This document shows, piece by piece, positions 12,222 to 61,779 of a DNA stretch of 64,000 bases (its first letter is position 1; each line of letters opens with the position of its first letter). Made by a program: the position numbers and the translations under genes. The notes beneath the pieces are model-generated. The model did not search any database and was not told where the DNA came from. It saw only the letters and a program-made list of their open reading frames with translations. The stretch lies in contig ONGK01000006.1 of the NCBI GenBank assembly GCA_900317345.1, positions 35,020 to 99,019 of the forward strand, given 5' to 3'. Source of the stretch: an uncultured Bacteroidales bacterium. GTDB taxonomy: Bacteria > Bacteroidota > Bacteroidia > Bacteroidales > Paludibacteraceae.

Positions 12222-13120
12222 TTAAACAGCAAGGCAGCAATAGAGTATATACCCGAGAAACGGATGAATCAGGCAGAACCGTCATCCGTGTAGAGGGTAC
12301 GAATCGCGATGAGAACCGCGCATTCATCTATATGTCTCGTCATTTCTCGGCGCTTGGACTGCCTGTCCCAAAAGTCCTTTGGGTGAGCGAAGATGAGATG
12401 AGTTATACTCAGGAGGATCTCGGAGACACGCTCCTCATTGATGTACTGAGCCCTACCTTATTAGAACGCGCTATACGCGCGCTCGCGCACATACAAGTTA
12501 CGGGCGCAAAGGACTTCGACTGGTCTGTCTGTTTCCCCGTTCCTGCGATGGACGAGCGCTCGATACGATGGGACCTCAATTACTTCAAATACTGTTTCCT
12601 CAAAGGCACGAAAATCGAGTTCTCCGAACCGAAACTCGAAGATGATTTCGATACTCTGGTCCAAAAGCTAATGGCTAACGCCAATGCCAATACCTTCCTG
12701 TATCGCGATTGCCAGAGCCGGAACATCATGATTAAAGATGGACAGCCCTATTTCATTGATTTTCAAGGCGGTCGCCGCGGACCGACGCAGTATGATGTAG
12801 CTTCGCTCTTGTGGCAGGCAAAGGCGAATATTGCCCCGGCGTTGAGAGAGCAGATGATTGACGCGTATCTCGATGAACTGAAAAAACTGCAACCGGGTTT
12901 GGATGAGCACGAATGGCGCAAAGCCTTACCGCATTTTGTGCTCCTGCGCATCCTGCAAGTCCTTGGCGCGTACGGTTACAGAGGCTATTTTGAGCGCAAG
13001 CAGCATTTCCTTGAGTCGATTCCCAATGCCCTGCGCAACCTGCGCGAAGTATTAGCGGGTCTTAATAACGAATATCCATATCTGTATGCTATTAGTAACG
13101 ATTTACTCCTTCTCGTATAA
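12218..13120 (+). CDS. Phosphotransferase of the AmgK (amino-sugar kinase) type
   Basis: A 300-residue protein of the aminoglycoside phosphotransferase superfamily. The catalytic loop YRDCQSRNIM is near residues 158-167, with Tyr where many members have His, and FIDFQGGRRGPTQYDVASL holds the metal-binding Asp. Genes of this kind next to a MurU-like nucleotidyltransferase encode the anomeric MurNAc/GlcNAc kinase AmgK of cell-wall recycling, so that role is inferred. The start overlaps the lipid kinase stop (ATGA). An Ala-Asn repeat (codons 12674-12694) precedes the catalytic loop. Weight for the family is high, for the substrate moderate. Confidence 0.82.
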   Translation: MIKQQGSNRVYTRETDESGRTVIRVEGTNRDENRAFIYMSRHFSALGLPVPKVLWVSEDEMSYTQEDLGDTLLIDVLSPTLLERAIRALAHIQVTGAKDFDWSVCFPVPAMDERSIRWDLNYFKYCFLKGTKIEFSEPKLEDDFDTLVQKLMANANANTFLYRDCQSRNIMIKDGQPYFIDFQGGRRGPTQYDVASLLWQAKANIAPALREQMIDAYLDELKKLQPGLDEHEWRKALPHFVLLRILQVLGAYGYRGYFERKQHFLESIPNALRNLREVLAGLNNEYPYLYAISNDLLLLV

Positions 13121-13487
13121 GCGAGGGCTGCCTGTGGACGAGTCCGGCAATGGCGGAGGATATATCTTTGATTGCCGTTCTACGCACAACCCCGGTAAAT
13201 ACGAGGAATATAAACAACTGACCGGATTAGACCAACCTGTGATTGATTTCTTGGAGAAGGATGGAGAGATTCTTTTCTTCCTTCAGCATGTAGATGCACT
13301 CATCGACCACCATGTGGAGCGGTTCCTCGAACGTGGATTCACACATCTGCAGGTCTCATTTGGCTGTACTGGAGGCCAGCATCGCTCAGTGTACTGCGCG
13401 GAGCACCTTGCCAAGCATCTGAAAGATAAATACGATGTCCAAATAGAATTAAACCACAGAGAACGCGGTATCGAGAAGAGATTATGA
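13086..13487 (+). CDS. RapZ C-terminal domain protein
   Basis: 133 residues matching only the C-terminal half of RapZ: TIYSFSYKRGLP, the GGGYIFDCRSTHNPG loop, and SFGCTGGQHRSVYCAEHLA. In E. coli the C-terminal domain of RapZ binds glucosamine 6-phosphate and RNA; the N-terminal nucleotide-binding domain is absent here. It starts within the kinase gene (35-bp overlap) and its TGA overlaps the next ATG. Lying between an amino-sugar kinase and a nucleotidyltransferase, it may sense an amino sugar and tune the pathway; that is inference. Confidence 0.9.
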   Translation: MLLVTIYSFSYKRGLPVDESGNGGGYIFDCRSTHNPGKYEEYKQLTGLDQPVIDFLEKDGEILFFLQHVDALIDHHVERFLERGFTHLQVSFGCTGGQHRSVYCAEHLAKHLKDKYDVQIELNHRERGIEKRL

Positions 13488-14245
13488 AAGCGATGATTTT
13501 TGCAGCAGGTCTTGGTACGCGTCTCAAACCGCTTACTGACACGATGCCGAAGGCTTTAGTGCCTCTGGCTGGAAAGCCGCTGCTCCAATGGCAAGTGGAG
13601 AAGTTGCGCGAAGCGGATATCAAGGATATCGTGGTCAATGTACATCATTTCCCTGACCAAATTATCGAAGCCGTTCAAGCGAACAACGGATGGGGTTGTA
13701 ACATCGTTATTTCCGATGAACGCGATGAACTGCTGGACACCGGCGGTGGTCTAAGAAAGGCTTGGCAAGAAGGGCTCCTGCCGACGGACGAACCTGTATT
13801 AGCATGCAATGTGGATATTCTTTCGAATATCGACTTGCCTGCTTTCAGGGCTTCATATGATCCTAAATCATTAGGCTCGCTGGTTGTGAGCGACCGAAAG
13901 ACACAGCGCTATCTGCTTTTCGATGACCATCAGATGCTACGCGGATGGACGAACATGAATACAGGAGAAATTCGTCCGGCATCATTAAGCGAAGCGGATC
14001 ATTCCATCACTTCATCATTCCATAAACTGGCTTTCTCAGGGATGCAGATTCTCAATCCTGCTGTCTTCGCTAAAATGGAAAAAATAGTGATGCAGAAAGG
14101 CGATAAGTTCTCTCTTATCGATCTCTATCTATCACTTTGCGAGACATACGAATTCAAAGCCTTTATCCCTTCCGACTACCGAATGATGGATGTCGGAAAG
14201 ATAGACCAAATCAACGAAGCCGAAGTCTTCGCTCAAAGTCTGTAA
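13484..14245 (+). CDS. MurU-like sugar-1-phosphate nucleotidyltransferase
   Basis: A 253-residue nucleotidyltransferase with the N-terminal signature FAAGLGTRLKPLTDTMPKAL, where GxGTR binds the nucleotide and Lys contacts phosphate. LDTGGGLRKAW and NVDILSNIDL follow. With the AmgK-type kinase two genes upstream, this fits MurU, which makes UDP-MurNAc from MurNAc 1-phosphate in peptidoglycan recycling. Mannose-1-phosphate guanylyltransferase is the alternative. It starts within the previous stop (ATGA) and ends 18 bp from the convergent tcdA gene. Confidence 0.85.
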   Translation: MKAMIFAAGLGTRLKPLTDTMPKALVPLAGKPLLQWQVEKLREADIKDIVVNVHHFPDQIIEAVQANNGWGCNIVISDERDELLDTGGGLRKAWQEGLLPTDEPVLACNVDILSNIDLPAFRASYDPKSLGSLVVSDRKTQRYLLFDDHQMLRGWTNMNTGEIRPASLSEADHSITSSFHKLAFSGMQILNPAVFAKMEKIVMQKGDKFSLIDLYLSLCETYEFKAFIPSDYRMMDVGKIDQINEAEVFAQSL

Positions 14246-14263
14246 AGAAAAAAAGTAGGAATA

Positions 14264-14974
14264 TTACGGACGATTCTTCCGGATATCTTCAATCACCAGA
14301 GCGGCAAGAGTGCAGCCAAATACAGCTGTCACTTGCATCAATGACCCGCGAGTCTCACATCGCTGTGCTTGTTCGGTTGAATAGACGCAGCGCACTTTTC
14401 TGGATGGCTTGCGGTTCATTTGTTTCATCCGGGCGCGAACGGCTTTCGCCAAGGCGTCGCCTTTGATATCCATTAACTCGCCGGTCGTCACTTGTGTCGG
14501 GTCAAACCGCAAAGCCGCGCCCATAGAGCAGAAGATTTTCACGCCGCGCGTGCGCGTCGCGTATAATATAAGGTCTGTCTTGTCTGCAACGCTGTCGATG
14601 GCATCAATGACGTAGTCGTACTTTGAGAAATCGTATATTGTACCTTTTGCCATTCTTTGCGCATCGTCCATTTGTCCTTCGTACATGGCATGAACGGCTT
14701 CTATCTTTGCTTCCGGATTAATCTCCAATAGCCGCTTTTTCAAGGCCTCCACTTTCGGCATACCGAGTGTTGTTTGCGTTGCGGGTAGTTGGCGGTTGAT
14801 ATTGGATGGTTGTACATCATCTCCATCCACGATGGTCAAGTGTATCAATCCTGTGCGTATCAGCGTCTCCGCGCACCATGAACCCACACCGCCTATACCA
14901 AAAAGTATGACACGTTTGCTTTGCAGCAGTGTCATACTTTTCTCGCCCAATAGGGCTATACTTCGACTGAACAT
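14264..14974 (-). CDS. tcdA: tRNA threonylcarbamoyladenosine dehydratase TcdA (ThiF/E1-like)
   Basis: 236 residues from the ATG at 14974. The E1-like Rossmann loop GIGGVGSWCAETLIRTG is near residues 25-41, with DGDDVQPSNINRQLPATQTTLG after it and DAIDSVADKTDLI further on. TcdA uses ATP to cyclise t6A to ct6A at position 37 of ANN-reading tRNAs. It starts 7 bp after rpsU, so it is transcribed with rpsU and tRNA-Leu: three translation-related products on one transcript. Other ThiF-like activating enzymes are possible but less likely at this size. Confidence 0.92.
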   Translation of the reverse strand: MFSRSIALLGEKSMTLLQSKRVILFGIGGVGSWCAETLIRTGLIHLTIVDGDDVQPSNINRQLPATQTTLGMPKVEALKKRLLEINPEAKIEAVHAMYEGQMDDAQRMAKGTIYDFSKYDYVIDAIDSVADKTDLILYATRTRGVKIFCSMGAALRFDPTQVTTGELMDIKGDALAKAVRARMKQMNRKPSRKVRCVYSTEQAQRCETRGSLMQVTAVFGCTLAALVIEDIRKNRP

Positions 14975-14981
14975 AGACGAT

Positions 14982-15176
14982 TTATTTATCGTCGTGAGCG
15001 TGCAACGACTGCACATACTTCGCATGTGCCATCTTAACTCGCTTCAGCTCACTCGGTTTGTCGAATTGCTGACGGCGACGGAGCTCTTTAATCACACCCG
15101 TCTTATCGAATTTGCGTTTGAATTTCTTAATCGCGCGCTCGATGTTCTCACCTTCTTTTACAGGAACGATAATCAT
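14982..15176 (-). CDS. rpsU: Ribosomal protein bS21
   Basis: 64-residue small-subunit protein: MIIVPVKEGENIERAIKKFKRKFDKTG, then the Arg-rich LRRRQQFDKPSE block. The frame is open to 15224, but that extension runs into the tRNA gene, so the ATG at 15176 is right. Ten bases before it, AAAGGAGGTG gives the longest possible match to the 3' end of 16S rRNA. In Bacteroidota bS21 helps hide that 16S tail, and a strong Shine-Dalgarno on rpsU is known to allow self-regulation, so this is a probable control site. Confidence 0.97.
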   Translation of the reverse strand: MIIVPVKEGENIERAIKKFKRKFDKTGVIKELRRRQQFDKPSELKRVKMAHAKYVQSLHAHDDK

Positions 15177-15182
15177 TGCATA

Positions 15183-15192
15183 CACCTCCTTT
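15183..15192 (-). promoter_or_regulatory. Full-length Shine-Dalgarno of rpsU
   Basis: On the minus strand the leader reads AAAGGAGGTG, complementary over ten bases to the CACCUCCUUU end of 16S rRNA. AGGAGG is 8 nt from the ATG. Nearly all other genes here lack such a site. Confidence 0.9.
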
Positions 15193-15197
15193 CTATG

Positions 15198-15277
15198 TAC
15201 CCAGGGCCGGGATCGAACCGGCACGGTTTCCCATTGGTGTTTGAGACCAACGCGTCTACCAATTCCGCCACCTGGGC
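15198..15277 (-). tRNA. tRNA-Leu (anticodon CAA)
   Basis: Minus strand, 80 nt. The acceptor GCCCAGG (15271-15277) pairs with CCTGGGT (15199-15205). The D arm has GCGGAATTGGTAGACGC. The anticodon stem is TTGGT/ACCAA around CTCAAAC (CAA), then a long variable arm GGGAAACC, and the T arm GCCGG-TTCGATC-CCGGC. The long variable arm is a class II feature of leucine tRNA. CAA reads UUG. No CCA is encoded. Confidence 0.95.
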
Positions 15278-15302
15278 GTGCTCTTCGTCCGAATGGCTAC
15301 AA

Positions 15303-15322
15303 CGGGTGTCGAGCCACTCGAC
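15303..15322. repeat. Short dyad repeat, copy 1
   Basis: CGGGTGTCGAGCCACTCGAC, with arms GTCGAG and CTCGAC. One base differs from a second copy at 17553-17572. It lies between the tRNA-Leu promoter and the tRNA, so it is transcribed. Confidence 0.7.
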
Positions 15323-15333
15323 CGAAAAAGCGT

Positions 15334-15364
15334 GCAAAATTACTGCTTTTTTTTGAATTGACAA
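15334..15364 (-). promoter_or_regulatory. Promoter of tRNA-Leu-rpsU-tcdA
   Basis: TTGTCAA (15358-15364, minus strand), 15-16 bp, TAATTTTGC (15334-15342). It is about 50 nt upstream of the mature tRNA. Confidence 0.8.
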
Positions 15365-15411
15365 AATTTTTTTGAAAAAAAATGCTTTTTGCCGCTATAA
15401 ACGGCTTTTTT

Positions 15412-17535
15412 TTAACTGATATCTCCCCAGAGAGGCTTCTCAGCACGCAGAAGATCCAGTTGGCGCTTATACATCCGGTTGCGCTCGTCTTCTAACAATG
15501 GGTCCTTGTCCAGAATATCCATCGCGGCTTGGCGCGCAAGGGCCACAAGCTGGCCGTCTGTGGCAAGGTTGGCGATATGCAAATCAAAGGGAGTGCCCGA
15601 TTGCAGCGTGCCTTCAAGGTCTCCCGGACCGCGTAACTGCAGGTCTGCCTCGGCGATGCGGAAACCGTCATTCGTCGCCACCATGATATCCATCCGCTTG
15701 CGGGTGTCCGAACTTATTTCTGAGTCCGTCAGTAAAATGCAATAACTCTGATCGCCGCCTCGACCCACGCGACCGCGCAACTGATGCAGCTGACTCAAAC
15801 CGAACCGCTCGGCGTTCTGAATCATCATTACCGTCGCATTGGGCACGTTCACACCCACTTCGATAACCGTCGTCGCCACCAGTATCTGTGTCTCACCGCT
15901 CGCAAAACGCTGCATCTGAAGGTCTTTGTCTGTGGCCTTCATCTGGCCGTGAACCATAGAAATCTTATATTCCGGAAATGCCTCGCATAACTCATTAAAG
16001 CCGTTTTCCAAGTCCCGCAGGTCCAGTTTTTCGTTCTCTTTGATGAGTGGAAAGACTACATAAATCTGCCGCCCCGCTTGTATCTGTGTGCGGATGAATG
16101 AATAGACCTGTGCACGGCGGTTTAGCGGGTAGTGAATGGTCTGTATCGGCTTGCGACCGGGTGGCAACTCGTCAATGATACTCACATGCAAATCGCCATA
16201 TACAGTCATCGCCAGCGTTCGGGGAATCGGCGTTGCTGTCATAACAAGTATATGCGGAGCAACTACCTGCATAGCTTGTTCGGGACCGGAACCACTCCGG
16301 GATTTCGTCCATAGTTTGGCACGTTGTGCCACGCCGAAGCGGTGTTGTTCATCGATGATGACGAGGCCTAAGTTTTGCCATTGAACGGCATCTTCCAATA
16401 ACGCGTGTGTACCTATTAATATATGTATCGTGCCGTTCATCAGACCGTTGTGTATCGGCACGCGGTTTTTAGCGGTTGTCGAACCCGTTAAAAGAGCCAC
16501 GTGAACGGCATCACCCAGAGGCGCGAGAAACGTTTTCAAGGTCTCATAGTGTTGGTTCGCAAGAATCTCTGTCGGAGCCATGATACATGTCTGATAGCTG
16601 TTATCTACTGCTAATAGGCAGCATAGCAGCGCCACCAAAGTCTTACCGGAACCGACATCGCCTTGCAACAGACGGTTCATCTGCTTGCCGGACTTCAAGT
16701 CATCGTGTATCTCGTGAATCACGCGTTTCTGTGCGTTCGTCAGGTCGAAAGGAAGCGATTTGTACAAGGCGTGGAAACGGCTTCCCACCAGCGGCATCTG
16801 GAATCCGGGGTTCTGTTCCCTGCGCTTCATCTGCCTTAGTATCTGCAGTTGCACAAAAAACAACTCTTCGAACTTCAGCCGTGCCCGAGCGTTCTGCATC
16901 GCGGCCGTGTCTTTCGGGAAATGCACATTAATCAGCGCGTCCGTCAGACTCATCAGTCGGTACTGTTGTAGGATATCAGCGCCGATAGTGTCCGGAACGC
17001 CCATCTTCAGGTCGGGAAGTAACTCTGCGATGATGGAGCGCATGGCTTTGGAATTCAGCCCGACGCGCTTCATCTTGTCGGTCGTGTTGTAGTATGGCTC
17101 CAAACCTTGCGTCATCTCCGGTGTCACCTTGTCCCAAGGTGTCAGTTCCGGATGAACGAAATTGTAGATATGTTGGAATCGGCTCGGTTTGCCGAATAGC
17201 AGATACTTGATTCCCCGCTGCAACTTGACATACTTCACGCCTTGAAACCACACCAGTTCGCATTGATGTGTCCCATCGTTGAATGTCGCGCTCAGCCGCT
17301 GTGCCTTGCCGATACCGATAGTGTGCCATTCGGTAACAGTACCGATGATTTGCACATACGTATCTTCGTCGTCCAATTCGGCAATGCGATAGAATCTGCT
17401 TCGGTCAATGTACTTGTACGGCACTTGACGCAACATATCCATCGCTGTGCGAACGCCCAGCTCTGAACGAAGAATGTCGGCACGCTTGGCGCCGACATTC
17501 TTGCAGTAAGTGATATCTCTATAAGCGAGTTCCAT
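15412..17535 (-). CDS. recG: ATP-dependent DNA helicase RecG
   Basis: RecG remodels stalled forks and branched DNA. The 707-residue protein shows the N-terminal wedge/OB region (about 60-140), Walker A QGDVGSGKT near 292-299, the helicase box DEQHRFG near 394, and the C-terminal motif V/VI region with TTVIEVGVNVPNAT and QLHQLRGRVGRG. The TRG-like tail FRIAEADLQLRGPGDLEGT is also typical. It follows tonB by 37 bp on the same strand, with a short dyad repeat in the gap, and is probably co-transcribed with it. Confidence 0.97.
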   Translation of the reverse strand: MELAYRDITYCKNVGAKRADILRSELGVRTAMDMLRQVPYKYIDRSRFYRIAELDDEDTYVQIIGTVTEWHTIGIGKAQRLSATFNDGTHQCELVWFQGVKYVKLQRGIKYLLFGKPSRFQHIYNFVHPELTPWDKVTPEMTQGLEPYYNTTDKMKRVGLNSKAMRSIIAELLPDLKMGVPDTIGADILQQYRLMSLTDALINVHFPKDTAAMQNARARLKFEELFFVQLQILRQMKRREQNPGFQMPLVGSRFHALYKSLPFDLTNAQKRVIHEIHDDLKSGKQMNRLLQGDVGSGKTLVALLCCLLAVDNSYQTCIMAPTEILANQHYETLKTFLAPLGDAVHVALLTGSTTAKNRVPIHNGLMNGTIHILIGTHALLEDAVQWQNLGLVIIDEQHRFGVAQRAKLWTKSRSGSGPEQAMQVVAPHILVMTATPIPRTLAMTVYGDLHVSIIDELPPGRKPIQTIHYPLNRRAQVYSFIRTQIQAGRQIYVVFPLIKENEKLDLRDLENGFNELCEAFPEYKISMVHGQMKATDKDLQMQRFASGETQILVATTVIEVGVNVPNATVMMIQNAERFGLSQLHQLRGRVGRGGDQSYCILLTDSEISSDTRKRMDIMVATNDGFRIAEADLQLRGPGDLEGTLQSGTPFDLHIANLATDGQLVALARQAAMDILDKDPLLEDERNRMYKRQLDLLRAEKPLWGDIS

Positions 17536-17552
17536 GAATCCGCATGATTAAG

Positions 17553-17572
17553 CGGGTGTCGAGCCTCTCGAC
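17553..17572. repeat. Short dyad repeat, copy 2
   Basis: CGGGTGTCGAGCCTCTCGAC in the tonB-recG gap; it matches the copy at 15303-15322 at 19 of 20 bases. Confidence 0.7.
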
Positions 17573-18250: not shown

Positions 18251-18288
18251 ATCTTGTGTTTTTTAGGTCGTGATTACTAAAATCGGGT

Positions 18289-18320
18289 ACAAAGTTACAA
18301 CTTTTTTTTTGAATGTGCAA
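18289..18320 (-). promoter_or_regulatory. Promoter of tonB-recG
   Basis: TTGCACA (18314-18320, minus strand), 16 bp, TAACTTTGT (18289-18297). It lies over the last codons of the upstream glycosyltransferase gene. Confidence 0.82.
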
Positions 18321-22898: not shown

Positions 22899-22940
22899 AC
22901 TAATAATATGGTTTGAATAAATTGTTTTTTGTTTTTCGCT

Positions 22941-22972
22941 GCAAAGTTACAACAATTTTTGCATATATGCAA
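22941..22972 (-). promoter_or_regulatory. Promoter of ssb and the polysaccharide chain
   Basis: TTGCATA (22966-22972, minus strand), 16 bp, TAACTTTGC (22941-22949). The -33 region is the perfect palindrome TTGCATATATGCAA (22959-22972). Confidence 0.85.
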
Positions 22973-22975
22973 GTG

Positions 22976-23398: not shown

Positions 23399-23433
23399 GT
23401 ACTATACTTTATGCTATCCATCAGCATCCCTTA

Positions 23434-23531
23434 CCATAGGATACCCATATGATATCCATAGGATACCCATAGGATAGAACCTCTTTTTTGCAATTTTTTC
23501 GCCTTATACTATATATACATAGTATATATAC
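23434..23531. repeat. 98-bp composite repeat, copy A
   Basis: Two tandem 22-bp units beginning CCATAGGATACCCATA (23434-23455 and 23456-23477), a 29-bp spacer, then an AT-rich segment TACTATATATAC-ATAGTATATATAC (23507-23531). A second copy with the same internal distances is at 45987-46084. It lies between the SpmA/SpmB-type gene and ybeY. Confidence 0.85.
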
Positions 23532-23545
23532 TTTTTGTTCGCTTT

Positions 23546-24778: not shown

Positions 24779-24781
24779 GCC

Positions 24782-34829: not shown

Positions 34830-35951
34830 ATGTACAAGACGAATGATATGAGACTCTGTCAGTTTAGATTTAAGCTGCCAGAAGAATTGATTGCTCAGTT
34901 CCCCGCGCCCTATCGTGACGATGCGCGGTTAATGGTGTTGCATCGCAAGACGGGTGAGATTGAGCATAAGTCGCTGCCGGAATTGATTACATATTTTGAC
35001 GAGGGAGACTTGTTTGTGTTTAATGACAGCAAGGTCTTTCCTGCCCGTTTATGGGGCCGCAAGGAAAAGACAAATGCGCTCATTGAAGTATTTCTCCTGC
35101 GTGAGTTGAATCACAAGAACCGCTATTGGGATGTGTTGGTTGAGCCGGCTCGTAAGATTCGTATTGGCAACAAACTGACGTTTGAAGAAGACCCTGCTAT
35201 TGTGGCGGAGGTGATTGACAACACCACCAGCCGCGGCCGTACGTTCCGTTTCTTGACCGACTATGACAACGAGGAGTTCGTATCCCGCTTGTACGCGCTG
35301 GGCAGTGCTCCGCTACCTAAGTATATCCGTCGTCCGATGGACGAAAACACACAAGCCCAATACGAAGAATCGTTCCATGACCAGCCTGTGCGTGAAATGG
35401 ATATTGAGCGCTATCAGACTATTTTTGCTGACAAGATTGGCGCTGTTGCTGCGCCCGCGTCCGGCATGCATTTCTCGAAGCATCTGCTCAAACGCATGGA
35501 GATTCGTGGCATCGAAACGGCGTTTATGACCAGCCATGTGTCGCTGGGTGTGTTCAAGGATATTGACGTGGAGGACTTGACGAAAAATAAAATGGAGTCC
35601 GAGCAGATCATCCTTCCCGAAGCCATGGCCAATGCCGTGAATAAGGCGCGTGAAGACCAACGTCGGATATGCGCTGTCGGCACGGAGGTGATGCGTGCGA
35701 TGGAGCATGTGGCCGGCACGAACGGGTTGCTCAAAGAGTACGATGGTTGGACCAACAAATTCATCTTCCCGCCGTACAACTTCTCCGTGGCGAATAGCTT
35801 CTTCGTGAATTTCTATATGCCATGCTCCAGCCAGTTGCTCATGGTAGCAGCTTTTGCTGGATACGAAGAGACGATGCATGCCTACGAGGTGGCGGTGGAG
35901 GAAGGATACCGCTTCGGCGATTATGGCGATGCGATGTTAATTGTAGATTGA
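34830..35951 (+). CDS. queA: tRNA preQ1(34) S-adenosylmethionine ribosyltransferase-isomerase
   Basis: Forms epoxyqueuosine from preQ1 in tRNA anticodons GUN. 373 residues: LPEELIAQFPAPYRDDARLMVLHR, FVFNDSKVFPARLWG, KIGAVAAPASGMHFSKHLL (APTAGLHF in most species) and HVSLGVFKDI. An in-frame ATG at 34848 (MRLCQFRF) is an equally good start. The sequence PEAMANAVNKA here is normal for the family and not part of the Ala-Asn repeat noted elsewhere. Its stop overlaps the ung start (TGATG). Confidence 0.95.
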   Translation: MYKTNDMRLCQFRFKLPEELIAQFPAPYRDDARLMVLHRKTGEIEHKSLPELITYFDEGDLFVFNDSKVFPARLWGRKEKTNALIEVFLLRELNHKNRYWDVLVEPARKIRIGNKLTFEEDPAIVAEVIDNTTSRGRTFRFLTDYDNEEFVSRLYALGSAPLPKYIRRPMDENTQAQYEESFHDQPVREMDIERYQTIFADKIGAVAAPASGMHFSKHLLKRMEIRGIETAFMTSHVSLGVFKDIDVEDLTKNKMESEQIILPEAMANAVNKAREDQRRICAVGTEVMRAMEHVAGTNGLLKEYDGWTNKFIFPPYNFSVANSFFVNFYMPCSSQLLMVAAFAGYEETMHAYEVAVEEGYRFGDYGDAMLIVD

Positions 35952-42897: not shown

Positions 42898-44274
42898 ATG
42901 AATACGATTCAATCATATCTTGACGCTCATCGTGAGCGGTTTATGGAGGAGTGGGCAAGCCTCATTCGCATCCCCAGTGTCAGTTGCCAGGCCGAGCATA
43001 AATCCGATATGCTCCGGTGCGCCGAGCGCTGGAAGGAACTGCTGCTTCAGGCTGGTTGCCAGAAAGCCGAAATCCTCCCTTCTGCCGGCAACCCCTTCGT
43101 CTATGCCGAATATAATTCTCAATTCTCAACTCTCAATTCTCAATTACCAACGGTCTTGGTCTACGCCCACTATGATGTCATGCCCGTTGAACCGCTCGAC
43201 CAGTGGCTCTCGAATCCCTGGGAACCGACCATTCGTGACGGACGCCTGTATGCGCGCGGGGCAGATGACGACAAAGGCCAGGCGATGATTCAAGCGAAAG
43301 CGTTTGAATATCTCGTCAAGACAGGACAAATGCGCTGTAACGTCAAGTTTATCTTTGAGGGAGAAGAAGAAATCGGTTCGCCTTCGCTCGAGGCTTTCCT
43401 CGAGGACCATAAGGAGATGCTTAAAGCGGATATCATCCTCGTCTCCGATACCTCGATGATAGGTAAAGACACGCCTTCTATCACCACCGGACTCCGCGGA
43501 CTCGCCTACTGGCAGATTGAGGTGGATGGACCTAACCGAGACCTCCATTCCGGGCATTTCGGCGGAGCCGTTAAGAATCCCGTCAATGCCCTCTGTGAGA
43601 TGCTTGCGAAGGTCGTAGATGAAAATGGACGTATCACAATCCCGCATTTCTACGACGATGTGTTGCCTATCCCCGAAGCCGAAAGGGCGATGATTGCGCA
43701 GATTCCTTTTGACCAGAAGAAATACAACCAAGCCATCGATGTGGACGACGTCTTCGGCGAAGCCGGTTACTCGACTTTGGAGCGTAACTCCTGCCGCCCG
43801 TCGTTTGATATATGCGGTATTTGGGGCGGCTACACCGGCGAAGGCTCTAAAACCGTCCTGCCCGCCAAAGCGTTTGCAAAGGTCTCCTGCCGTCTGGTCG
43901 CAAATCAGGACCATGAGAAGATTTCGCAGGCCTTCATCGATTATATCAAATCTCTTGCGCCCAAGAGTGTGCGCGTGCATGTCACGCCGATGCACGGGGG
44001 ACAAGGATATGTGTGCCCGATAGATATCCCGGCATACAAAGCGGCGGAGAAAGGCTTCGAGATTGCCTTCGGCAAACGTCCTCTCGCGGCACGACGAGGT
44101 GGCAGTATTCCTATCATCGCGGCCTTCGAGCAGATACTCGGCTGCAAAACCATTCTCATGGGCTTCGGACTCGAGCAGAACGCCATTCATTCGCCGAACG
44201 AGTCTATGGACCTTGAGGTCTGGGAGAAAGGCATCATCGCCGTTACCGAATTCTATAAACACTTAGCGGAATAA
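42898..44274 (+). CDS. M20 family metallodipeptidase
   Basis: A 458-residue cytoplasmic di-zinc dipeptidase of the M20/ArgE-DapE-CNDP group. Metal and catalytic blocks: VLVYAHYDVMPVEPLDQW (His, Asp), GADDDKGQAMIQAKA, FEGEEEIGSPSLEAFL (catalytic Glu pair), VSDTSM and near the end IPIIAAFEQILG with GLEQNAIHSPNE. A run NSQFSTLNSQL at about residues 73-83 comes from a tandem CTCAATTCT-type DNA repeat (43114-43146), just before the metal-binding strand, and looks like an in-frame insertion. Start 6 bp after the DUF4421 gene. Confidence 0.93.
   Translation: MNTIQSYLDAHRERFMEEWASLIRIPSVSCQAEHKSDMLRCAERWKELLLQAGCQKAEILPSAGNPFVYAEYNSQFSTLNSQLPTVLVYAHYDVMPVEPLDQWLSNPWEPTIRDGRLYARGADDDKGQAMIQAKAFEYLVKTGQMRCNVKFIFEGEEEIGSPSLEAFLEDHKEMLKADIILVSDTSMIGKDTPSITTGLRGLAYWQIEVDGPNRDLHSGHFGGAVKNPVNALCEMLAKVVDENGRITIPHFYDDVLPIPEAERAMIAQIPFDQKKYNQAIDVDDVFGEAGYSTLERNSCRPSFDICGIWGGYTGEGSKTVLPAKAFAKVSCRLVANQDHEKISQAFIDYIKSLAPKSVRVHVTPMHGGQGYVCPIDIPAYKAAEKGFEIAFGKRPLAARRGGSIPIIAAFEQILGCKTILMGFGLEQNAIHSPNESMDLEVWEKGIIAVTEFYKHLAE
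43114..43146. repeat. In-frame CTCAATTCT-type tandem repeat
   Basis: Four close copies of TCTCAATTC / TCTCAACTC words in the M20 peptidase gene, encoding NSQFSTLNSQL. This kind of sequence is more usual between genes. Confidence 0.8.
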
Positions 44275-44278: not shown

Positions 44279-45748
44279 ATGGGAAAGAAGAAAAACCTGC
44301 CTGTTTTTGAGAATATTGAGATTACCGGCGTAGCCGCCGAAGGAAAGGCGCTCGTGCGGATTAATGACATCGTTACTTTTGTGCCGAATTGTGTACCCGG
44401 GGACGTCGTCGACCTGCAAATAACGAAGAAAAAGCACTCGTTCATGGAGGCGAAAGTGTTGCGTGTTGTCAAGCCCAGCGACGTACGATGTGCCGCCAAG
44501 TGCCCGCATTTCGGAGTCTGCGGAGGTTGCAAATGGCAAATACTCCCGTACGACGAGCAGCTCAAATACAAGCAGCAGCAGATTGTTGATAACCTCACAC
44601 GCATTGGAAAGATAGACCTGCCGGAAATAAGCCCTATCCTCGGTTCCAAGCATATCTACGAGTACCGAAACAAGCTCGAATTCACGTGCGCGGACCGAAA
44701 ATGGCTGCCCACCGAGGAGTTCCAACGAGCCAATGCCAATGCCGATGCCGACGCCCTTTCATATGGCTTGGGATTCCATATCCCAAACTGTTTTGACAAA
44801 GTCCTCGATATCACCGAGTGCCACCTCATGCCCGATATCAACAACCGCATTCGCAACGGCATTCGCGAATATGCACGCGAGCACCAAATCACGTTCTATA
44901 ACGAGCACACGCACGAAGGATTGCTGCGAACGATTATTCTGCGAAATAACCACAAAGGCGAACTCATGCTCATTGTATGTTTCGGAGAGGAACTGAAAGC
45001 CGACGCCAAAGCCAAAGCCGAAGCTCTGCTCAACTGGTTGCATGCGCAGTTCCCGGAGATCATCTCGCTCCTCTATGTCGAGAACCTCAAGTTCAACGAC
45101 ACCATCGGCGATTTGGATGTGCGCGTTTGGTTCGGACAGGACCATATTATCGAGGAGATGGAAGGTCTGCGCTTCAAGGTCGGACCCAAATCCTTCTACC
45201 AGACCAATACCGAGCAGGCCTACGAACTCTACAAAGTAGCCCGTTCTTTCGCTTTCGATGATATCGCCAACGGCCAAAGCCAATGCCAAAGTCCCGACCA
45301 ACGCCCATTAGTCTACGATCTCTACACCGGCACTGGCACGATTGCGAATTTCGTAGCACGGCAGGCACGGCAAGTCATCGGTATTGAGTATGTGCCGGAG
45401 GCCATCGAAGATGCCAAGGCCAATGCCGACGCCAATGCACTCTCTAACACGCTCTTCTTCGCCGGAGATATGAAAGACATACTCAACGATGCGTTCGTCA
45501 AGAAATATGGCCGCCCGGACGTTATTATTACGGACCCGCCGCGTGCAGGCATGCACGAAGATGTGGTGAATGTCATTTTGAATGCGGAGCCGAAGCGTAT
45601 TGTTTATGTTAGTTGCAATCCTGCTACGCAGGCACGAGACCTCGCCCTCTTGGATGCCAAGTATCGAGTCACAGCTGTCCAGCCCGTGGATATGTTCCCG
45701 CACACCCAACACGTAGAGAACGTCGTCCGCCTCGACCTAAAGGCATAA
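44279..45748 (+). CDS. rlmD: 23S rRNA (uracil-C5)-methyltransferase, RlmD/RumA type
   Basis: 489 residues. An N-terminal TRAM-like domain (VRINDIVTFVPNCVPGDVVDLQI) comes first, then the Fe-S cluster Cys set CAAKCPHFGVCGGCKWQ near residues 75-91, the SAM site VYDLYTGTGTIANFVARQ near 346-363, DPPRAG near 419, and the catalytic-Cys block VSCNPATQARDLALL near 443-457. It methylates uridine in 23S rRNA (U1939 in E. coli). Four tracts of Ala-Asn/Ala-Asp/Ala-Lys repeats lie in its loops (44729-44755, 44999-45025, 45265-45295, 45413-45439). Its stop touches the end of the convergent SRP RNA. Confidence 0.94.
   Translation: MGKKKNLPVFENIEITGVAAEGKALVRINDIVTFVPNCVPGDVVDLQITKKKHSFMEAKVLRVVKPSDVRCAAKCPHFGVCGGCKWQILPYDEQLKYKQQQIVDNLTRIGKIDLPEISPILGSKHIYEYRNKLEFTCADRKWLPTEEFQRANANADADALSYGLGFHIPNCFDKVLDITECHLMPDINNRIRNGIREYAREHQITFYNEHTHEGLLRTIILRNNHKGELMLIVCFGEELKADAKAKAEALLNWLHAQFPEIISLLYVENLKFNDTIGDLDVRVWFGQDHIIEEMEGLRFKVGPKSFYQTNTEQAYELYKVARSFAFDDIANGQSQCQSPDQRPLVYDLYTGTGTIANFVARQARQVIGIEYVPEAIEDAKANADANALSNTLFFAGDMKDILNDAFVKKYGRPDVIITDPPRAGMHEDVVNVILNAEPKRIVYVSCNPATQARDLALLDAKYRVTAVQPVDMFPHTQHVENVVRLDLKA
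44729..44755. repeat. GCC-RAY hexamer repeat in rlmD
   Basis: Nine codons GCC AAT GCC AAT GCC GAT GCC GAC GCC, reading ANANADADA. One of the tracts of this unit found in five genes of the window. Confidence 0.85.
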
Positions 45749-45844: not shown

Positions 45845-46103
45845 TTGACCAAATTTTAAGGCAACTTTTTGCGAAAAACATTCCATATCCCTGCTTTTTG
45901 CACCCAAACCGCCCACTTTCCGCCCCTCTTCCGCCCCCAAAACCGCCCCCATCACCTTCCATTTACCTACCCATTACCTACCCTCACCATAGGATACCCA
46001 TACCATATCCATAGGATACCCATATGATAGACACGCAAAAATGACAATTTTTGCACGTTTACTATATATACGTAGTATATATACTTTTTTTTCATCAAAA
46101 GTC
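45845..46103. other. Intergenic stretch with 98-bp repeat and C-rich tract
   Basis: No gene is supported. 45897-45990 is C-rich on the plus strand (CCGCCC-type words). The 98-bp repeat follows at 45987-46084, then the pectinesterase promoter. Confidence 0.5.
45987..46084. repeat. 98-bp composite repeat, copy B
   Basis: Two 22-bp units (45987-46008 and 46009-46030) starting CCATAGGATACCCATA, a 29-bp spacer that holds the perfect hairpin GCAAAAAT-gaca-ATTTTTGC (46035-46054), then TACTATATATAC-GTAGTATATATAC (46060-46084). Same plan and total length as the copy at 23434-23531. Confidence 0.85.
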
Positions 46104-50761: not shown

Positions 50762-50796
50762 GCCGATAGCCAACTGTTAACAGACAAAATATATAT

Positions 50797-57700: not shown

Positions 57701-57831
57701 TCATTGCTGCCACCAGCCTCTGGATGCCGATGGGTGTTGTCATCTGTTTCGGTACCATTTTCACGTTGCCGTTGACGGTGACAATCTTGCCGGTGGTATA
57801 CTGGAAGGTATATGCCCATAAGGATATTTGA
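54760..57831 (+). CDS. RND efflux permease
   Basis: 1023 residues starting at a GTG overlapping the adaptor stop. It has the 12-helix RND layout: helix 1 (LVMALFLILTLFGIYSLPKM), a large periplasmic loop with VALYPGATASEVEQQV, helices 2-6 with GMIVDDSVIVIDG holding the proton-relay Asp pair, a second loop (LAATILK-type, HLRDGAPLEE), and helices 8-12 with GVVSLIGIIVRNAIMMYEYAED. In sequence it is nearer to the hydrophobe/amphiphile export group than to metal pumps. Operon mate of the adaptor. Confidence 0.94.
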   Translation: MKTSKHIEAAMRHHGLVMALFLILTLFGIYSLPKMNKDEFPQFTIRQALVVALYPGATASEVEQQVTMPLEDYINSFEAVDKSLTFSNSQDGFSYVYVMLRMHSVESEKAWNKIRAGLPVLQKTQLPAGVLQTVLIDDFGSTSSLLIAVESAERSPRELELYAKQICSTLRTIPEMGKLRIMGQQTEEIAITIDPERLSAYSINPSALEAQLALQGLRTLGGTNDASGALQVVIPYQSEYEIQEQVVWSDPVTRATVRLKDIATVERRYQKPKQYVEFDGASCLILNMEMMPGNNIVAFGQEVDKQLAQAATMLPPDIKFHRITDQPKVVKDSVFSFLRDILISILVVIAVMLILFPLRTALVAATGLPVCTAICLGLMYVTGIELNTVTLAALIFVLGMIVDDSVIVIDGYTNQLARRHSRWYSAVISTSLLFVPMSLATMAICGMFFPMTRIITGPLGEFVQLFPWAVLFALVASIFYATWVTPYLSYYFIRNRKDDELTLFERAQNKFFTWLQDGYKRILQRCFDKPVIVWCMLAGALSIGIFLLSRLNLQLLPKAEREFFAVEIHLRDGAPLEESAAVADSLATILKADPNVTSVTAFIGQSSPRFHAAYTPQTPAANYAQLIVNTKSSKATTQVIREYSRRYENYFPNAYARFKQLDYQSAKNPIEIRVKGEDWERMAPIADSIFRYMVKQPELQWVHCDFNNMEASTRIVLKPDEATRLGITQAMLSLYLRQATQGATVTTLYEGSYAVPVVLYTAGVDMMKPDELGAIQIPTAIPGTWVPLRQVATIEPEWHHTSLERRNAVRTITVGSDLRGTTSQVSAERKIRKWIDANITDLPEGVSIVYGGLTEVNGLILPQIFWSIIAALAVMLVLLLYHFGKVGLALLTLSSAVLCVFGAMLGLWIFQLDISITAVLGVVSLIGIIVRNAIMMYEYAEDSRKYKHMNYREAAFHAGLRRMRPVFLTSATTALGVLPMIIAATSLWMPMGVVICFGTIFTLPLTVTILPVVYWKVYAHKDI

Positions 57832-58384
57832 TAATATGGCGCAGTGCTCCGACGAGGAGGTGCAACGCATGCTCCCGCTTGTCAGCGAGCAGAGGCGCGA
57901 GCAGGCCTTGCGGTACAAGCATACCTTGGGCAGGTTCTGCTGTCTCAAGAGTTGGCTCTTGCTGCAGGAACTGGTAGGCGAGCTTCCCGAATGGCAATAC
58001 AACGAGTATGGCAAGCCTTTCATCGAAGGCGGACCGCACTTTTCTATCAGCCATTGCAAGACAGGCATCGCGGTGGCGGTAGCCGATGAGCCGGTAGGCA
58101 TTGATATTGAGCATATTCGCACGGCGGACCAGGACCTTATCGAACGGACGATGAATGCCGATGAGATTCAGCTAATAGCCAATGCCGACGCCAATGCCGA
58201 CATCGCATTCACGCGCCTATGGACCCGGAAAGAGGCTGTCGCCAAATGGCAAGGAACGGGAATAACGTCCTTCGAACAATTGCAATCGATAATCGAGAAG
58301 AATACATCGAATATCGAAACCTTTGAAAAAGAGAAGTATATATATAGCATAGCATATGGAAAACTACATTGTTTCAGCGCGTAA
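57812..58384 (+). CDS. 4'-phosphopantetheinyl transferase (Sfp/AcpS superfamily)
   Basis: Transfers phosphopantetheine from CoA to carrier proteins. 190 residues: LPEWQYNEYGKPFIEGGPHFSISH, VGIDIEHIR with the metal-binding Asp near residues 94-102, and FTRLWTRKEAVAKWQGTGI near 133-151. An insert NADANAD coded by GCC-RAY units (58178-58201) lies just before the FTRLWTRKEA helix. It overlaps the RND gene by 20 bp and dnaX by 29 bp. Substrate carrier unknown; it may be the only such enzyme or an extra one. Confidence 0.9.
   Translation: MPIRIFDNMAQCSDEEVQRMLPLVSEQRREQALRYKHTLGRFCCLKSWLLLQELVGELPEWQYNEYGKPFIEGGPHFSISHCKTGIAVAVADEPVGIDIEHIRTADQDLIERTMNADEIQLIANADANADIAFTRLWTRKEAVAKWQGTGITSFEQLQSIIEKNTSNIETFEKEKYIYSIAYGKLHCFSA
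58178..58201. repeat. GCC-RAY hexamer repeat in the phosphopantetheinyl transferase
   Basis: GCC AAT GCC GAC GCC AAT GCC GAC: four units, encoding ANADANAD. Confidence 0.85.
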
Positions 58385-60068
58385 GTACAGGCCGCAGACC
58401 TTTGAGTCGGTCGTTGGTCAGCAGGCGCTCACCCAGACGCTGCAGAACGCTATTCGTCAGAACCATCTGGCGCATGCATATCTCTTCTGCGGACCGAGAG
58501 GAGTGGGCAAAACCACCTGTGCGCGTATTTTCGCGAAAACCATTAACTGTCTTAACCCGCAGAACGGATTTGACGCCTGCAATGAGTGCGAGAGTTGCAA
58601 GGCCTTCAATGAGCAGCGGTCGTTCAATATCCACGAACTCGATGCCGCTTCCAATAACTCGGTCGAGGATATCCGTGCGCTGATTGACCAAGTGCGAATA
58701 CCGCCGCAGATAGGCAAGTACTCCGTCTATATTATCGACGAGGTGCATATGCTCTCTGCCGGCGCCTTTAATGCATTGCTCAAGACGCTGGAGGAACCGC
58801 CCTCATATGCCATCTTCATCCTTGCTACCACGGAGAAGCATAAGGTGCTGCCTACCATTCTCAGCCGCTGTCAGGTCTATGACTTCAACCGGATTACCGT
58901 ACCCGATACCATCGCTTATCTGCAGCAGGTAGCGGCGAACGAAGGCGTGACCGCCAGCGAAGAAGCGCTCAATGTGGTGGCGCAAAAAGCGGACGGAGGA
59001 ATGCGTGACGCACTCTCTATCTTCGACCAGCTCGTGGCGTTCTGCGGTAATAATATCACGTATGAGCAGACCATTGCCGTGCTCAATGTGCTCAATGCCG
59101 ACTACTATTTCCAATTGGTTGAGGCGGCGCTGCAGCACGATGTAACGAAAGCACTCTTGCTTTTCAACGATGTGCTGACCCATGGTTTCGATGCCGGACA
59201 TTTTGTCACCGGTTTTGCCCAACACCTGCGTGACGTGCTTGTCTGCCGTGACGCGCAGACACTGCCGCTTCTGGAGACAAGTGATGCCGTGCGTGCTCGT
59301 TATGCTGAGCAGGCGAAGTATTGCCAGCCTATGTGGCTCTTTATGGCGCTCGATATCCTCAATACCTGCGATATCAACTATCGCACGGCGCGCAACAAAC
59401 GTCTCACGGTGGAACTCGCGCTCGTCAAACTCTGCCAGCTTGGCGTTCCGCAAACGGTAACAACCGCTGCGCCCCAAAAGCCAGCCGCCAAAGCTGCCGA
59501 ACAAAAGCCAACGGCTAATACCAAAGCCGACGCCACTCCAACACCAACGGCCAACGCCAGCGCCAATACCGCTCCCGCTGCTCCCGCCGCACCAGCCATG
59601 CCCAAGATACCGAAGATAGGGCTTGGCTTTGGACCCAAGAAAGGAGAACCGGCGGCTAACGCCAATACTAACACCGACGCCAACGCCGACACAAATGCCG
59701 ACGCCAACGCCCCTTTTACGGCTGACCAACTCAGAGACGCGTGGGTTGGTCTGGCTCAATCCTTTAAGGAGGAATTGCGTCTCAAGCAGTTGATAGAGAA
59801 TTATATACCGCAGATGATAGACGAGCTGACGGCGGAAATACAAATGCCGAATCCATGGCAGATGACGGAGATGAGAAAGGCTTTGCCCGATATCATGCGC
59901 CGTTTGCGCAAGGTGCTGCATAATAACCACCTGCAGATTCAACTGGTGCAGGCGGAGTATAACCAGGAGCAGATGGCTTTTACCGCCGAGGAGAAATATG
60001 CGCTCATGGCGGAGCAGAACCCCGATCTTGCTCAACTCAAAGAACGTCTTGACCTGCAAATAGACTAA
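58356..60068 (+). CDS. dnaX: DNA polymerase III subunit gamma/tau
   Basis: Clamp-loader ATPase. 570 residues: RKYRPQTFESVVGQQALTQTL, Walker A GPRGVGKTTCARIF near residues 46-59, the zinc Cys set CNECESCKAF, Walker B VYIIDEVHMLS, sensor ATTEKHKVLPTILSRCQ. Domain III ends near 365. The tau-like tail has an Ala/Pro/Asn region with many GCC-RAY units (59513-59570 and 59654-59712: for example ANTNTDANADTNADANA) and then a short charged C-terminal domain. The ATG overlaps the previous gene by 29 bp. No obvious slippery A-run for a gamma frameshift was seen. Confidence 0.96.
   Translation: MENYIVSARKYRPQTFESVVGQQALTQTLQNAIRQNHLAHAYLFCGPRGVGKTTCARIFAKTINCLNPQNGFDACNECESCKAFNEQRSFNIHELDAASNNSVEDIRALIDQVRIPPQIGKYSVYIIDEVHMLSAGAFNALLKTLEEPPSYAIFILATTEKHKVLPTILSRCQVYDFNRITVPDTIAYLQQVAANEGVTASEEALNVVAQKADGGMRDALSIFDQLVAFCGNNITYEQTIAVLNVLNADYYFQLVEAALQHDVTKALLLFNDVLTHGFDAGHFVTGFAQHLRDVLVCRDAQTLPLLETSDAVRARYAEQAKYCQPMWLFMALDILNTCDINYRTARNKRLTVELALVKLCQLGVPQTVTTAAPQKPAAKAAEQKPTANTKADATPTPTANASANTAPAAPAAPAMPKIPKIGLGFGPKKGEPAANANTNTDANADTNADANAPFTADQLRDAWVGLAQSFKEELRLKQLIENYIPQMIDELTAEIQMPNPWQMTEMRKALPDIMRRLRKVLHNNHLQIQLVQAEYNQEQMAFTAEEKYALMAEQNPDLAQLKERLDLQID
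59513..59712. repeat. GCC-RAY-rich tracts in dnaX
   Basis: Two stretches (59513-59570, 59654-59712) of GCC, AAY, GAY and ACC codons in the linker of tau, the richest site of this repeat in the window. Confidence 0.85.
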
Positions 60069-60078
60069 TTCAACGCCA

Positions 60079-61779
60079 ATGGCTGACCTGCTCAAATATC
60101 TGCCGACGACCCGAAAAGAAACGGATCTGCGAGGCTGGGATGAAGTGGACATCGTCTTCTTCACCGGTGACGCATATATTGACCATCCGTCTTTTGGCGC
60201 TGCGGTCCTCGGGCGAGTGCTCGAAGCAGCAGGTTATCGTGTGGCTATTGTGCCCCAGCCCGACTGGCATGGTGACTTCCGCGACTTCAAGAAATTCGGT
60301 CGTCCGCGGCTCTATTTCGCGGTCTCTGCCGGTTCGATGGACTCGATGGTGAATCATTATACGGCGGCTAAGAGACGCCGGTCTGATGATGCCTATACGC
60401 CCGACGGACGTGCCGGCATGCGCCCTGATTACTGCACTATCACCTATTGCCGCATCCTCAAGCAGTTGTACCCCGATGTGCCTATTGTCATCGGCGGTAT
60501 AGAGGCATCCATGCGCCGCCTGACGCACTATGACTACTGGCAGGATAAACTCATGCCCTCCATCCTTGTGGATAGCGGAGCCGACCTCCTCGTCTATGGT
60601 ATGGGCGAGCAGGCTATGAAAGCGATTGCCGACCAACCGGCCAACGCCAATACCAACGCCCTCCACACCATACCACAGACGGCCTTCTTGGCCACCGATA
60701 GGAGCGAATGGCCCGAGGATGCCATCATCCTGGCTTCCCATGAAGAGGCGGTGCGGGATAAGCGCAAGCATGCGGAGAACTTCCGCCTCATGGAGATTGA
60801 GTCGAATAAGATTCACCAGACAACCCTCGTGCAACCTGTCGGCAACCGGTTTGTGGTGGTCAACCCGTCGTATCCGCCCATGACAACTGACCAGCTGGAT
60901 GCTATCTACGACCTGCCGTATCAATACACGCCGCATCCCAAATATAAGGACAAACGCATCCCCGCGTACGAGATGATCAAGTGGTCTGTCTGTATGCATC
61001 GCGGCTGTTTCGGCGGATGTTCGTTCTGCACGATTTCTGCCCACCAGGGCAAGCAGATTGTGTCCCGGTCCAAAGCGTCCATCTTGCGCCAGATAGAGCG
61101 GCTCAGCCGCCTCCCGGACTGGCATGGCGTGCTCTCCGACCTCGGCGGACCGTCGGCGAACATGTATCAGATGCACGGCGTGGATATGTCGCTTTGCGAG
61201 AAATGCGCACGTGCCAGCTGCCTACAGCCTGCCATTTGTAAGAATCTCAATCGTGACTTTGGCCCGATTCTTGATATATATCGTTCGGTGGACAAGCTGC
61301 CGTATGTCAAGCATGCCTTCGTCGGCTCGGGAATCCGCTATGATCTCATGAGCGATGAATACGCACGCCAACTCATCTCACGGCATGTCTCAGGCCGTCT
61401 CAAAGTGGCGCCGGAGCATTGTTCCGACAGCGTGCTCAAAATCATGCGCAAGCCCGCGTGGAGCAACTACTTGCGCTTCCGCGACCTCTTCCTCCGCATC
61501 AATAGCGAGGCGGGGCTCAACCAGCAACTCATCCCGTATTTCATCTCCTCGCATCCGGGATGCACACGCCGCGATATGCAGATGCTCGCCGATGAGACCA
61601 AGCGGATGCACTATCGTCCGGAGCAGGTGCAGGACTTCACGCCTACGCCTATGACGCTCTCCACCACGATGTTCTATACAGGCATCAACCCCTATACCGG
61701 CGAACCCGTCTATGTGGCGCGGACGTCCGAAGAAAAGAAACAACAGAACCAGTATTTTTTCTGGTACAAAAAATCATAA
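60079..61779 (+). CDS. YgiQ family radical SAM protein
   Basis: 566 residues. An N-terminal UPF0313/B12-binding-like part opens the protein (DLLKYLPTTRKETDLRGWDEVDIV, then GDAYIDHPSFGAAVLGRVLEAAGY). Next is the radical SAM site CMHRGCFGGCSFC near residues 311-323, with the three Cys of CxxxCxxC at the first, fifth and eighth (CFGGC) positions. GRLKVAPEHCSDSVL and PYFISSHPGC lie further on. The reaction is not known to me. A PANANTNA insert (60640-60660) lies in a loop near residue 190. It starts 10 bp after dnaX. Confidence 0.92.
   Translation: MADLLKYLPTTRKETDLRGWDEVDIVFFTGDAYIDHPSFGAAVLGRVLEAAGYRVAIVPQPDWHGDFRDFKKFGRPRLYFAVSAGSMDSMVNHYTAAKRRRSDDAYTPDGRAGMRPDYCTITYCRILKQLYPDVPIVIGGIEASMRRLTHYDYWQDKLMPSILVDSGADLLVYGMGEQAMKAIADQPANANTNALHTIPQTAFLATDRSEWPEDAIILASHEEAVRDKRKHAENFRLMEIESNKIHQTTLVQPVGNRFVVVNPSYPPMTTDQLDAIYDLPYQYTPHPKYKDKRIPAYEMIKWSVCMHRGCFGGCSFCTISAHQGKQIVSRSKASILRQIERLSRLPDWHGVLSDLGGPSANMYQMHGVDMSLCEKCARASCLQPAICKNLNRDFGPILDIYRSVDKLPYVKHAFVGSGIRYDLMSDEYARQLISRHVSGRLKVAPEHCSDSVLKIMRKPAWSNYLRFRDLFLRINSEAGLNQQLIPYFISSHPGCTRRDMQMLADETKRMHYRPEQVQDFTPTPMTLSTTMFYTGINPYTGEPVYVARTSEEKKQQNQYFFWYKKS

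Follow-up and report, generated by a model that had tools for sequence, protein, structure and literature searches.

Degenerate heptamer repeats of the types (GGGANTN)n and GGGGA(C/T)T are known from Xanthomonas and Nostoc (PMC4692102), and repeats of the heptamer TAACTGA occur in Beggiatoaceae, Cyanobacteria and five Bacteroidetes (PMC4679880). For the long simple sequence repeats of Mrazek et al. (2007), as relayed in PMC4679880 and PMC4692102, units of at most 11 nucleotides (nt) are reported, 7 nt being the commonest unit in most genomes; within genes, unit lengths divisible by three are described as the likeliest, and slippage has been proposed. Our statements on these papers, and on PMC10969869 below, refer to excerpts of each source. 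Here, we have analysed tracts of the six-base word GCC-RAY in a stretch of 64,000 nt (the window: positions 35,020 to 99,019 of contig ONGK01000006.1, assembly GCA_900317345.1) from an uncultured Bacteroidales bacterium of the Paludibacteraceae, where a first-pass annotation had listed nine stretches of it in five unrelated genes. All nine exist, and the window holds seven runs of at least two GCC-RAY units, all on the forward strand. In our view, these tracts are probably degenerate short tandem repeats that form by slippage or template switching, are copied between loci and are filtered by the encoded protein, GCC-RAY being one word of a genus-wide class.

The heptamers of Xanthomonas and Nostoc are comparable in that they form many short arrays, mostly of few units, whose 7-base word is specific to the genome and combines fixed with free positions, and in that length and sequence vary between close relatives (PMC4692102). 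They differ in being G-rich and, in the excerpts of that source, mainly intergenic, whereas 72 of our 94 tracts are genic, with housekeeping genes included, and 27 of the 29 tracts of the genome holding the window lie in the sense orientation of genes (by crude gene calls); moreover, the word of this genome has six bases, and in its relatives different words stand at the corresponding site. The 7-base TAACTGA repeats are likewise dispersed direct repeats with a patchy distribution across lineages and a mechanism of spread that is not evident from the excerpts of PMC4679880, but they consist of one fixed word, located mostly upstream of start codons and containing stops in translation, whereas the repeat described here is degenerate and intragenic. 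Tandem units of 5-11 nt beyond chance and a degenerate unit with a fixed core, which define the heptamers and the long simple sequence repeats, are both found here; unlike in the latter, the word that fills a given protein segment differs between species. Rickettsia palindromic elements are also DNA-level repeats that occur in frame in many unrelated protein genes, but they are palindromic and about 150 base pairs (bp) long (PMC10969869), whereas the tracts of the type found in this genome measure 18-54 bp and do not belong to such elements. Two features seem to be new, the turnover within conserved genes and a 6-bp word that keeps the frame; among the open-licence papers listed in the searches, judged by titles and the beginnings of abstracts, we have found no description of such repeats in Bacteroidales.

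The genome holding the window (G000) is a draft of 1.96 Mb in 77 contigs, where the pattern (GCCRAY)3 has 19 overlapping matches at 13 places and the pattern (GCNRAY)3 has 29 overlapping matches at 19 places, with no match for the reversed pattern in either case; two of the match places are contig ends with identical sequence and are perhaps one place. The ends of contigs C47 and C48 carry the same tract in the same context, as if the assembly had broken at the repeat. Coding sequence has been counted in a 653-kb sample with 545 genes, which were predicted crudely by a simple script of our own; the sample is non-random, being composed of the window, stretches picked for matches and match-free contigs, and the subset used for period and codon counts (G000unb) consists of contigs without pattern matches, which are not an unbiased sample. 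Three in-frame units in a row begin at 16 positions (an overlapping count), against 0.0 in codon-shuffled and 1.13 in synonymously shuffled genes; the codon-shuffled comparison, which the first-pass annotation had proposed for the whole genome, is thus clearly in favour of the repeat in this sample. Two-unit runs number 43, where 9.7 are expected with the protein kept, and single words are mildly enriched (587 against 466 expected with the protein kept).

The structure of the word has been read from 94 tracts with 363 units, which are defined on the DNA of six genomes and each required to hold at least two GCC units. In this set, selected in part by its third base, that base is C in 332 of the 363 units, while the sixth base varies (T 144, C 134, A 70, G 15) and shows no correlation between neighbouring units; at the fourth base neighbours are slightly alike (211 pairs against 201.7 expected, with a shuffle range of 194-209). 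The repeat is therefore a word of DNA in which the core, GCCAA, is nearly fixed and the sixth base is variable. Its codons lead to the same result: in the sample, the alanine codon is GCC in 51 of 56 cases (91%) within tracts and in 4229 of 16664 (25%) outside, whereas the codons of asparagine (AAT/AAC 26/21) and aspartate (GAT/GAC 5/10) in tracts are near background, which indicates that the word is fixed at the DNA level at GCC and not at the sixth base.

The tracts of the window and their host genes are listed in Table 1. Most of the stretches encode Ala-Asn or Ala-Asp in frame, as the first-pass annotation had claimed for all of them; the exceptions are 45265-45295, which is mostly out of frame, and 44999-45025, where a single GCC-RAY unit is accompanied by GCC-AAA and GCC-GAA (Lys/Glu), i.e. 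by units of the repeat whose sixth base is a purine. The two DnaX stretches are present, with starts given one base off (as 59513-59570 and 59654-59712). Further hosts of the tracts in the same genome are PheS, a Mur ligase, a biotin/lipoate-ligase-family protein and a family-9 glycosyl hydrolase, as well as a HAD-family phosphatase and a GNAT protein, where the tract is C-terminal.

Table 1. Host genes, repeat tracts and a neighbouring 7-bp array in the window (positions are those of the window).
Feature	Position	Strand	Sequence or peptide	GCC-RAY units	Remark
Phosphotransferase-family (APH, PF01636) kinase	12176..13120	+			"AmgK-like" in the first-pass annotation
rlmD-type 23S rRNA (uracil-5-)-methyltransferase	44279..45748	+
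4'-phosphopantetheinyl transferase (PPTase, PF01648)	57812..58384	+
dnaX	58356..60068	+
YgiQ-type radical SAM protein (PF08497)	60079..61779	+
AmgK-like kinase array	12667..12694	+	GCTAATG GCTAAC GCCAAT GCCAAT ACC (ANANANT)	two, in frame (12674-12694)	variable segment before the FLYRD motif
RlmD t1	44729..44755	+	ANANADADA	four, in frame
RlmD t2	44999..45025	+	GCC-GAC, GCC-AAA, GCC-AAA, GCC-GAA (ADAKAKAEA)	one
RlmD t3	45266..45295	+	GCCAACG GCCAAA GCCAAT GCCAAA (ANGQSQCQSP)	one in frame, one in frame +1	mostly out of frame
RlmD t4	45413..45439	+	AKANADANA	three	no length change; family helix pattern
PPTase array	58171..58201	+	GCTAATA (7), then GCCAAT GCCGAC GCCAAT GCCGAC (6 x 4)	four (58178-58201)
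DnaX linker, first stretch	59514..59570	+	GCC-RAY and ACC-AAY units; Ala/Pro/Thr-rich	three, scattered	linker variable in all relatives shown
DnaX linker, second stretch	59655..59711	+	nine RCN-RAY units and a closing GCC (ANANTNTDANADTNADANA)	five
YgiQ-family tract	60640..60660	+	GCCAAC GCCAAT ACCAAC GCC (ANANTNA)	two
7-bp array	43114..43145	+	(AATTCTC)n		within predicted coding sequence; genus-typical period

The comparison of the corresponding segments in relatives has revealed that other words occupy the same places. In a scripted count over seven sites (29 loci given per site, of which 20-29 are usable, the same genomes recurring across sites), an array of period 6-8 is found in 36 of 182 segments and in 45 of 3182 control windows of the same length taken elsewhere in the same genes; the 36 arrays of the segments all have period 7. 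By site, the segments with an array and the control windows with an array number 3/20 and 8/353 for the AmgK-like kinase, 10/25 and 0/443 for YgiQ, 2/21 and 21/298 for the PPTase, 3/29 and 12/513 for RlmD t1, 11/29 and 3/528 for t2, 2/29 and 1/547 for t3, and 5/29 and 0/500 for DnaX. Seven different words occur at the YgiQ site, AAAGGTG, AAAGTCG, AAAGTGG, AATGGAC, AAATGGC and AAAAATT among them; CCAATCA and other words fill the DnaX linker, and TTTCAAC (twice) and CTACACC (once) occur at the AmgK-like site, where the other relatives have a short segment. The PPTase segment holds period-7 GCCAAYA in G014, AAAGGTG in G036 and an ATTAGGG-like array in G025; the latter gene (L247) carries its telomere-like units in frame. 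Many relatives have no array at the segment, and many segments are similar in length and filled with other sequence, often repeats.

Three further fillings have been observed at these sites. In two loci (L273, L274) the AmgK-like segment holds an in-frame palindromic DNA, CTCTCCC...GGGGAGAG-like, with the peptide SPLRGEPERG, and the similar peptides SPLRGEPEG and PSTGEPEG occur in the t3 segment of L061 and L078. In a third locus (L277) the AmgK-like segment is filled by a word that resembles the 12-mer AGCGAAGCGGTC, found at 16 separate places in the 653 kb of G000 and at 10 in 394 kb of G002.

RlmD t4, located within the predicted helix 373-385, behaves differently from the other RlmD tracts. 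The first-pass annotation had it seemingly replacing residues rather than adding them. Its length is unchanged, and it follows the helix pattern of the RlmD family; t4 is probably not an inserted repeat, and its reading as an insert has been rejected, as it aligns without gaps with the solved homologue SP_1029, none of 28 relatives carries an array there (control 12/487), and all segments have 17 amino acids. In the predicted structure of RlmD (mean per-residue confidence, pLDDT, 85.9), t1 (residues 151-159) covers a helix end and a loop, t2 the first part of the predicted helix 241-257, and t3 is disordered (pLDDT < 50 at residues 330-336); t1-t3 adjoin gaps in the alignment with SP_1029. The PPTase tract shows gaps of one residue only relative to Sfp, i.e. 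no long insert, and the PheS tract replaces a linker of about equal length, where 4 of the 29 relatives shown carry 7-bp-like arrays (by eye). The proposal that most tracts fall in loops that are shorter in relatives has therefore to be restricted: t2 and t4 lie in predicted helices, many relatives have segments of similar length with another filling, and t4 and the PheS tract show little or no change in length.

As a 6-bp word, GCC-RAN is found in a few scattered lineages. All compared genomes are drafts, and the true length of an array cannot be read from draft metagenome-assembled genomes (MAGs); by RlmD, the nearest named genomes are MAGs of uncultured Bacteroidales, many of which come from the rumen or the gut and several of which carry the label Paludibacteraceae (the record of G000 itself was perhaps excluded). 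The pattern (GCCRAY)3 occurs in 28 of 178 genus genomes, with counts of 28 in G195, 25 in G153, 19 in G000, 15 in G115, 9 in G002, 7 in G095, 7 in G072 and 1-3 in the others. Counts of 1-3 mean little, because up to 3 matches of the reversed pattern are found in genomes of the genus (and 5 in a genome from another family); the term carrier is therefore used for the seven genomes with at least seven matches alone. On a quick RlmD tree of 37 rows, these carriers need 5 changes (at least 4 by the starred branches; shuffled mean 6.6), and a single carrier clade is rejected on a tree to which the carriers were added on purpose and on which gains and losses look alike. Four units in a row are found in 4 of 295 genomes of the order (G000, G128, G267 and G366); the last two lie outside the genus, G267 with a pure (GCCAAT)12 array at one place and G366 with a single match.

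The class to which the word belongs is wider, and its typical period is 7. Period 7 is the most frequent one among the coding arrays sampled from G000, G002, G014, G034 and G067, with none in codon-shuffled controls, and it also leads among the intergenic arrays of G014, G034 and G067; arrays of period 4-5 have not been found in the sampled genomes. Around rlmD, arrays of period 6-8 number 40 in 202 kb of the nearer named relatives and 15 in 347 kb of the farther ones. The 7-bp words are shared within genomes in 111 of 2404 pairs and between genomes in 187 of 9377, with none of 2000 label shuffles reaching as high. In G195 and G153, the six-base word itself occurs within intergenic mosaics, beside 7-bp words such as AAAGTAG, AAAGTCG and GGTCGTT.

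We propose that arrays arise in steps of 6-8 bases, through slippage during replication or through template switching, that short homology may then allow their copying from one locus to another within a genome, and that coding arrays would survive only where the protein tolerates them, i.e. in linkers, variable segments and gene ends. Steps of this size would be handled poorly by mismatch repair; the presence of mutS and the lack of period 4-5 arrays are consistent with larger steps escaping repair. A loss of mismatch repair has been rejected on the presence of mutS (mutL was not searched for). A 6-bp unit would be especially tolerable in genes, because the frame is kept, no stop occurs in any of the six frames (checked by hand) and the Ala-Asn/Asp product is hydrophilic.

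The hexamer is probably derived from the 7-bp word of relatives, GCYAAYR, by the loss of one base. The spacing between cores is 7 in G014, mainly 6 in G000 (74 against 25 at 7) and intermediate in G002 (25 against 18), and three arrays of the window, starting at 58171, 12667 and 45266, mix both spacings. Around 93 tracts, a GCYRA core lies exactly 7 bases beyond the tract 15 times, against 0, 3, 2, 0 and 0 times at offsets 8, 9, 10, 11 and 14, and it lies at offset 12 (6+6) 17 times and at offset 13 (6+7) 6 times. The first-pass annotation had considered a spreading repeat or a slippage hot spot, which is the right class; the spread between loci is a step that we infer.

Several observations weigh against this account. 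No copying event between loci has been seen directly, and simple slippage predicts alike neighbouring units, which are found slightly at the fourth base and not at the sixth. The genomes G034 and G067 share words in 36 of 570 pairs, above the within-genome mean, and base composition may explain part of the sharing. The YgiQ and RlmD t2 sites supply 21 of the 36 array-bearing segments, and the PPTase site has no excess over its control windows. Among intergenic arrays, period 11 leads in G000 (21, with 9 of period 7) and in G002 (10, with 5 of period 7), and the strong preference for the Ala-Asn/Asp frame (see below) means that selection on the protein matters too.

Arrays of 11 bp form the largest intergenic class of the G000 sample, with 21 cases against 0 after shuffling. 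One such tandem repeat (CCATAGGATAC) occurs in the same form at 23434-23476 and at 45987-46029 of the window, both outside predicted genes.

The most serious rival, which we nevertheless consider unlikely, is a classical microsatellite, where each tract has grown alone by slippage from a local seed and no exchange between loci takes place. The tracts are indeed tandem and of short period; 7-nt steps give the commonest long repeats in most bacteria (work cited in PMC4679880); the (GCCAAT)12 array of G267 is the plain form of such a repeat; and word sharing between genomes can be high, as in the pair above. The number of units also differs between the two species G000 and G002 at a shared gene end (ANANANADNR and ANANANSK), and RlmD t3 is 6 amino acids shorter in G002. 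On the other hand, the word occurs at 13 places of G000 with mixed units, and this mixing argues against simple slippage in place, which may still apply at single loci; the units are not near-identical, with a sixth base uncorrelated between neighbours, and the sharing of words is on average higher within genomes than between them.

Selection at the protein level for flexible, acidic or polar Ala-Asn/Asp linkers, with the DNA pattern as its mere reflection, is an improbable explanation on the frames and the codons taken together. The loci of four of the six genomes were picked for having matches, so that their tallies are not genome averages: of the 94 tracts, 58 lie in frame 0, 3 in frame 1, 8 in frame 2 and 3 antisense, and 22 have no predicted gene (in G000 alone, by the same crude calls, 21, 2, 4, 1 and 1). 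The first-pass annotation had suggested looking for copies between genes. The share of genic tracts in the Ala-Asn/Asp frame (58 of 72), the position of several tracts in linkers or at gene ends and the 9.7 two-unit runs that are expected once the protein is kept all speak for the protein, and the excess of sense and frame 0 would fit a filter, with sense peptides hydrophilic or neutral and antisense ones hydrophobic (by hand). Amino-acid preference alone nevertheless fails, as had been suspected, because of the GCC bias and the out-of-frame, antisense and intergenic copies, the genic ones reading LTPTPMP (frame 2), GQCQRQC (frame 1) or LALALALA and GVGVGVG (antisense); as a sole cause it is ruled out by the codon test. 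Unrelated peptides at the same place in relatives point the same way.

It is rather speculative, and in our judgement improbable to a similar or slightly greater degree, that a hypothetical enzyme (e.g. a reverse transcriptase or a terminal transferase) writes genome-specific words of 6-8 bases at breaks or stalled forks. Such an enzyme would work from a short template, whose change would change the word; it would explain the fixed core with free positions, the lack of correlation between neighbours, the period of 7 across species and the new words in the same segment.

A functional signal in the DNA, i.e. an uptake, binding or methylation word, is very improbable. The nearly fixed core GCCAA in all frames speaks for it, and the first-pass annotation had offered this reading among others. 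A DNA uptake sequence is found as single words that are hugely overrepresented genome-wide and common to relatives. Here, single words are hardly enriched, 150 of the 178 genus genomes have no triple, 291 of the 295 order genomes have no four in a row, and relatives carry other words at the same place; an uptake or binding word has thus been rejected as the main cause, and a special signal in GCC-RAY is not supported. An artefact of assembly or binning can be dismissed almost entirely: contig ends do lie near tracts (C47 and C48 of G000 with the same end; C16, C26 and C40 of G195) and all genomes are drafts, but the tracts lie in uninterrupted reading frames of conserved genes, and the word at a given place differs from one MAG to another.

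If our account is true, DNA repeats in this genus rewrite variable segments of proteins over the time in which species diverge, and this rewriting affects housekeeping genes (RlmD, DnaX, PheS, Mur ligase and the biotin/lipoate-ligase-family protein). The 178 genus genomes would then form a natural system for the birth and spread of repeats, the change of period from 7 to 6 and the filtering by protein site, while peptides such as ANANAN would be repeat-derived and not to be read as functional motifs; LKIKNEELK and PSTLNAQPSTLN would probably be repeat-derived likewise.

The folding of RNA from six tracts of the window has given z-scores of -1.17, -0.10, 1.55, 0.74, -0.08 and -2.79, i.e. no excess structure in five of the six, and a palindromic element has been rejected on this basis. 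Strong, G-U-rich hairpins (z -4.66 and -4.17) have been observed at intergenic copies of the word in G195 (L296 1440-1560 and L300 1440-1560), where the word forms one arm and RTY-GGC units form the other; several such sites have similar flanks, and we make no connection between them and the coding tracts.

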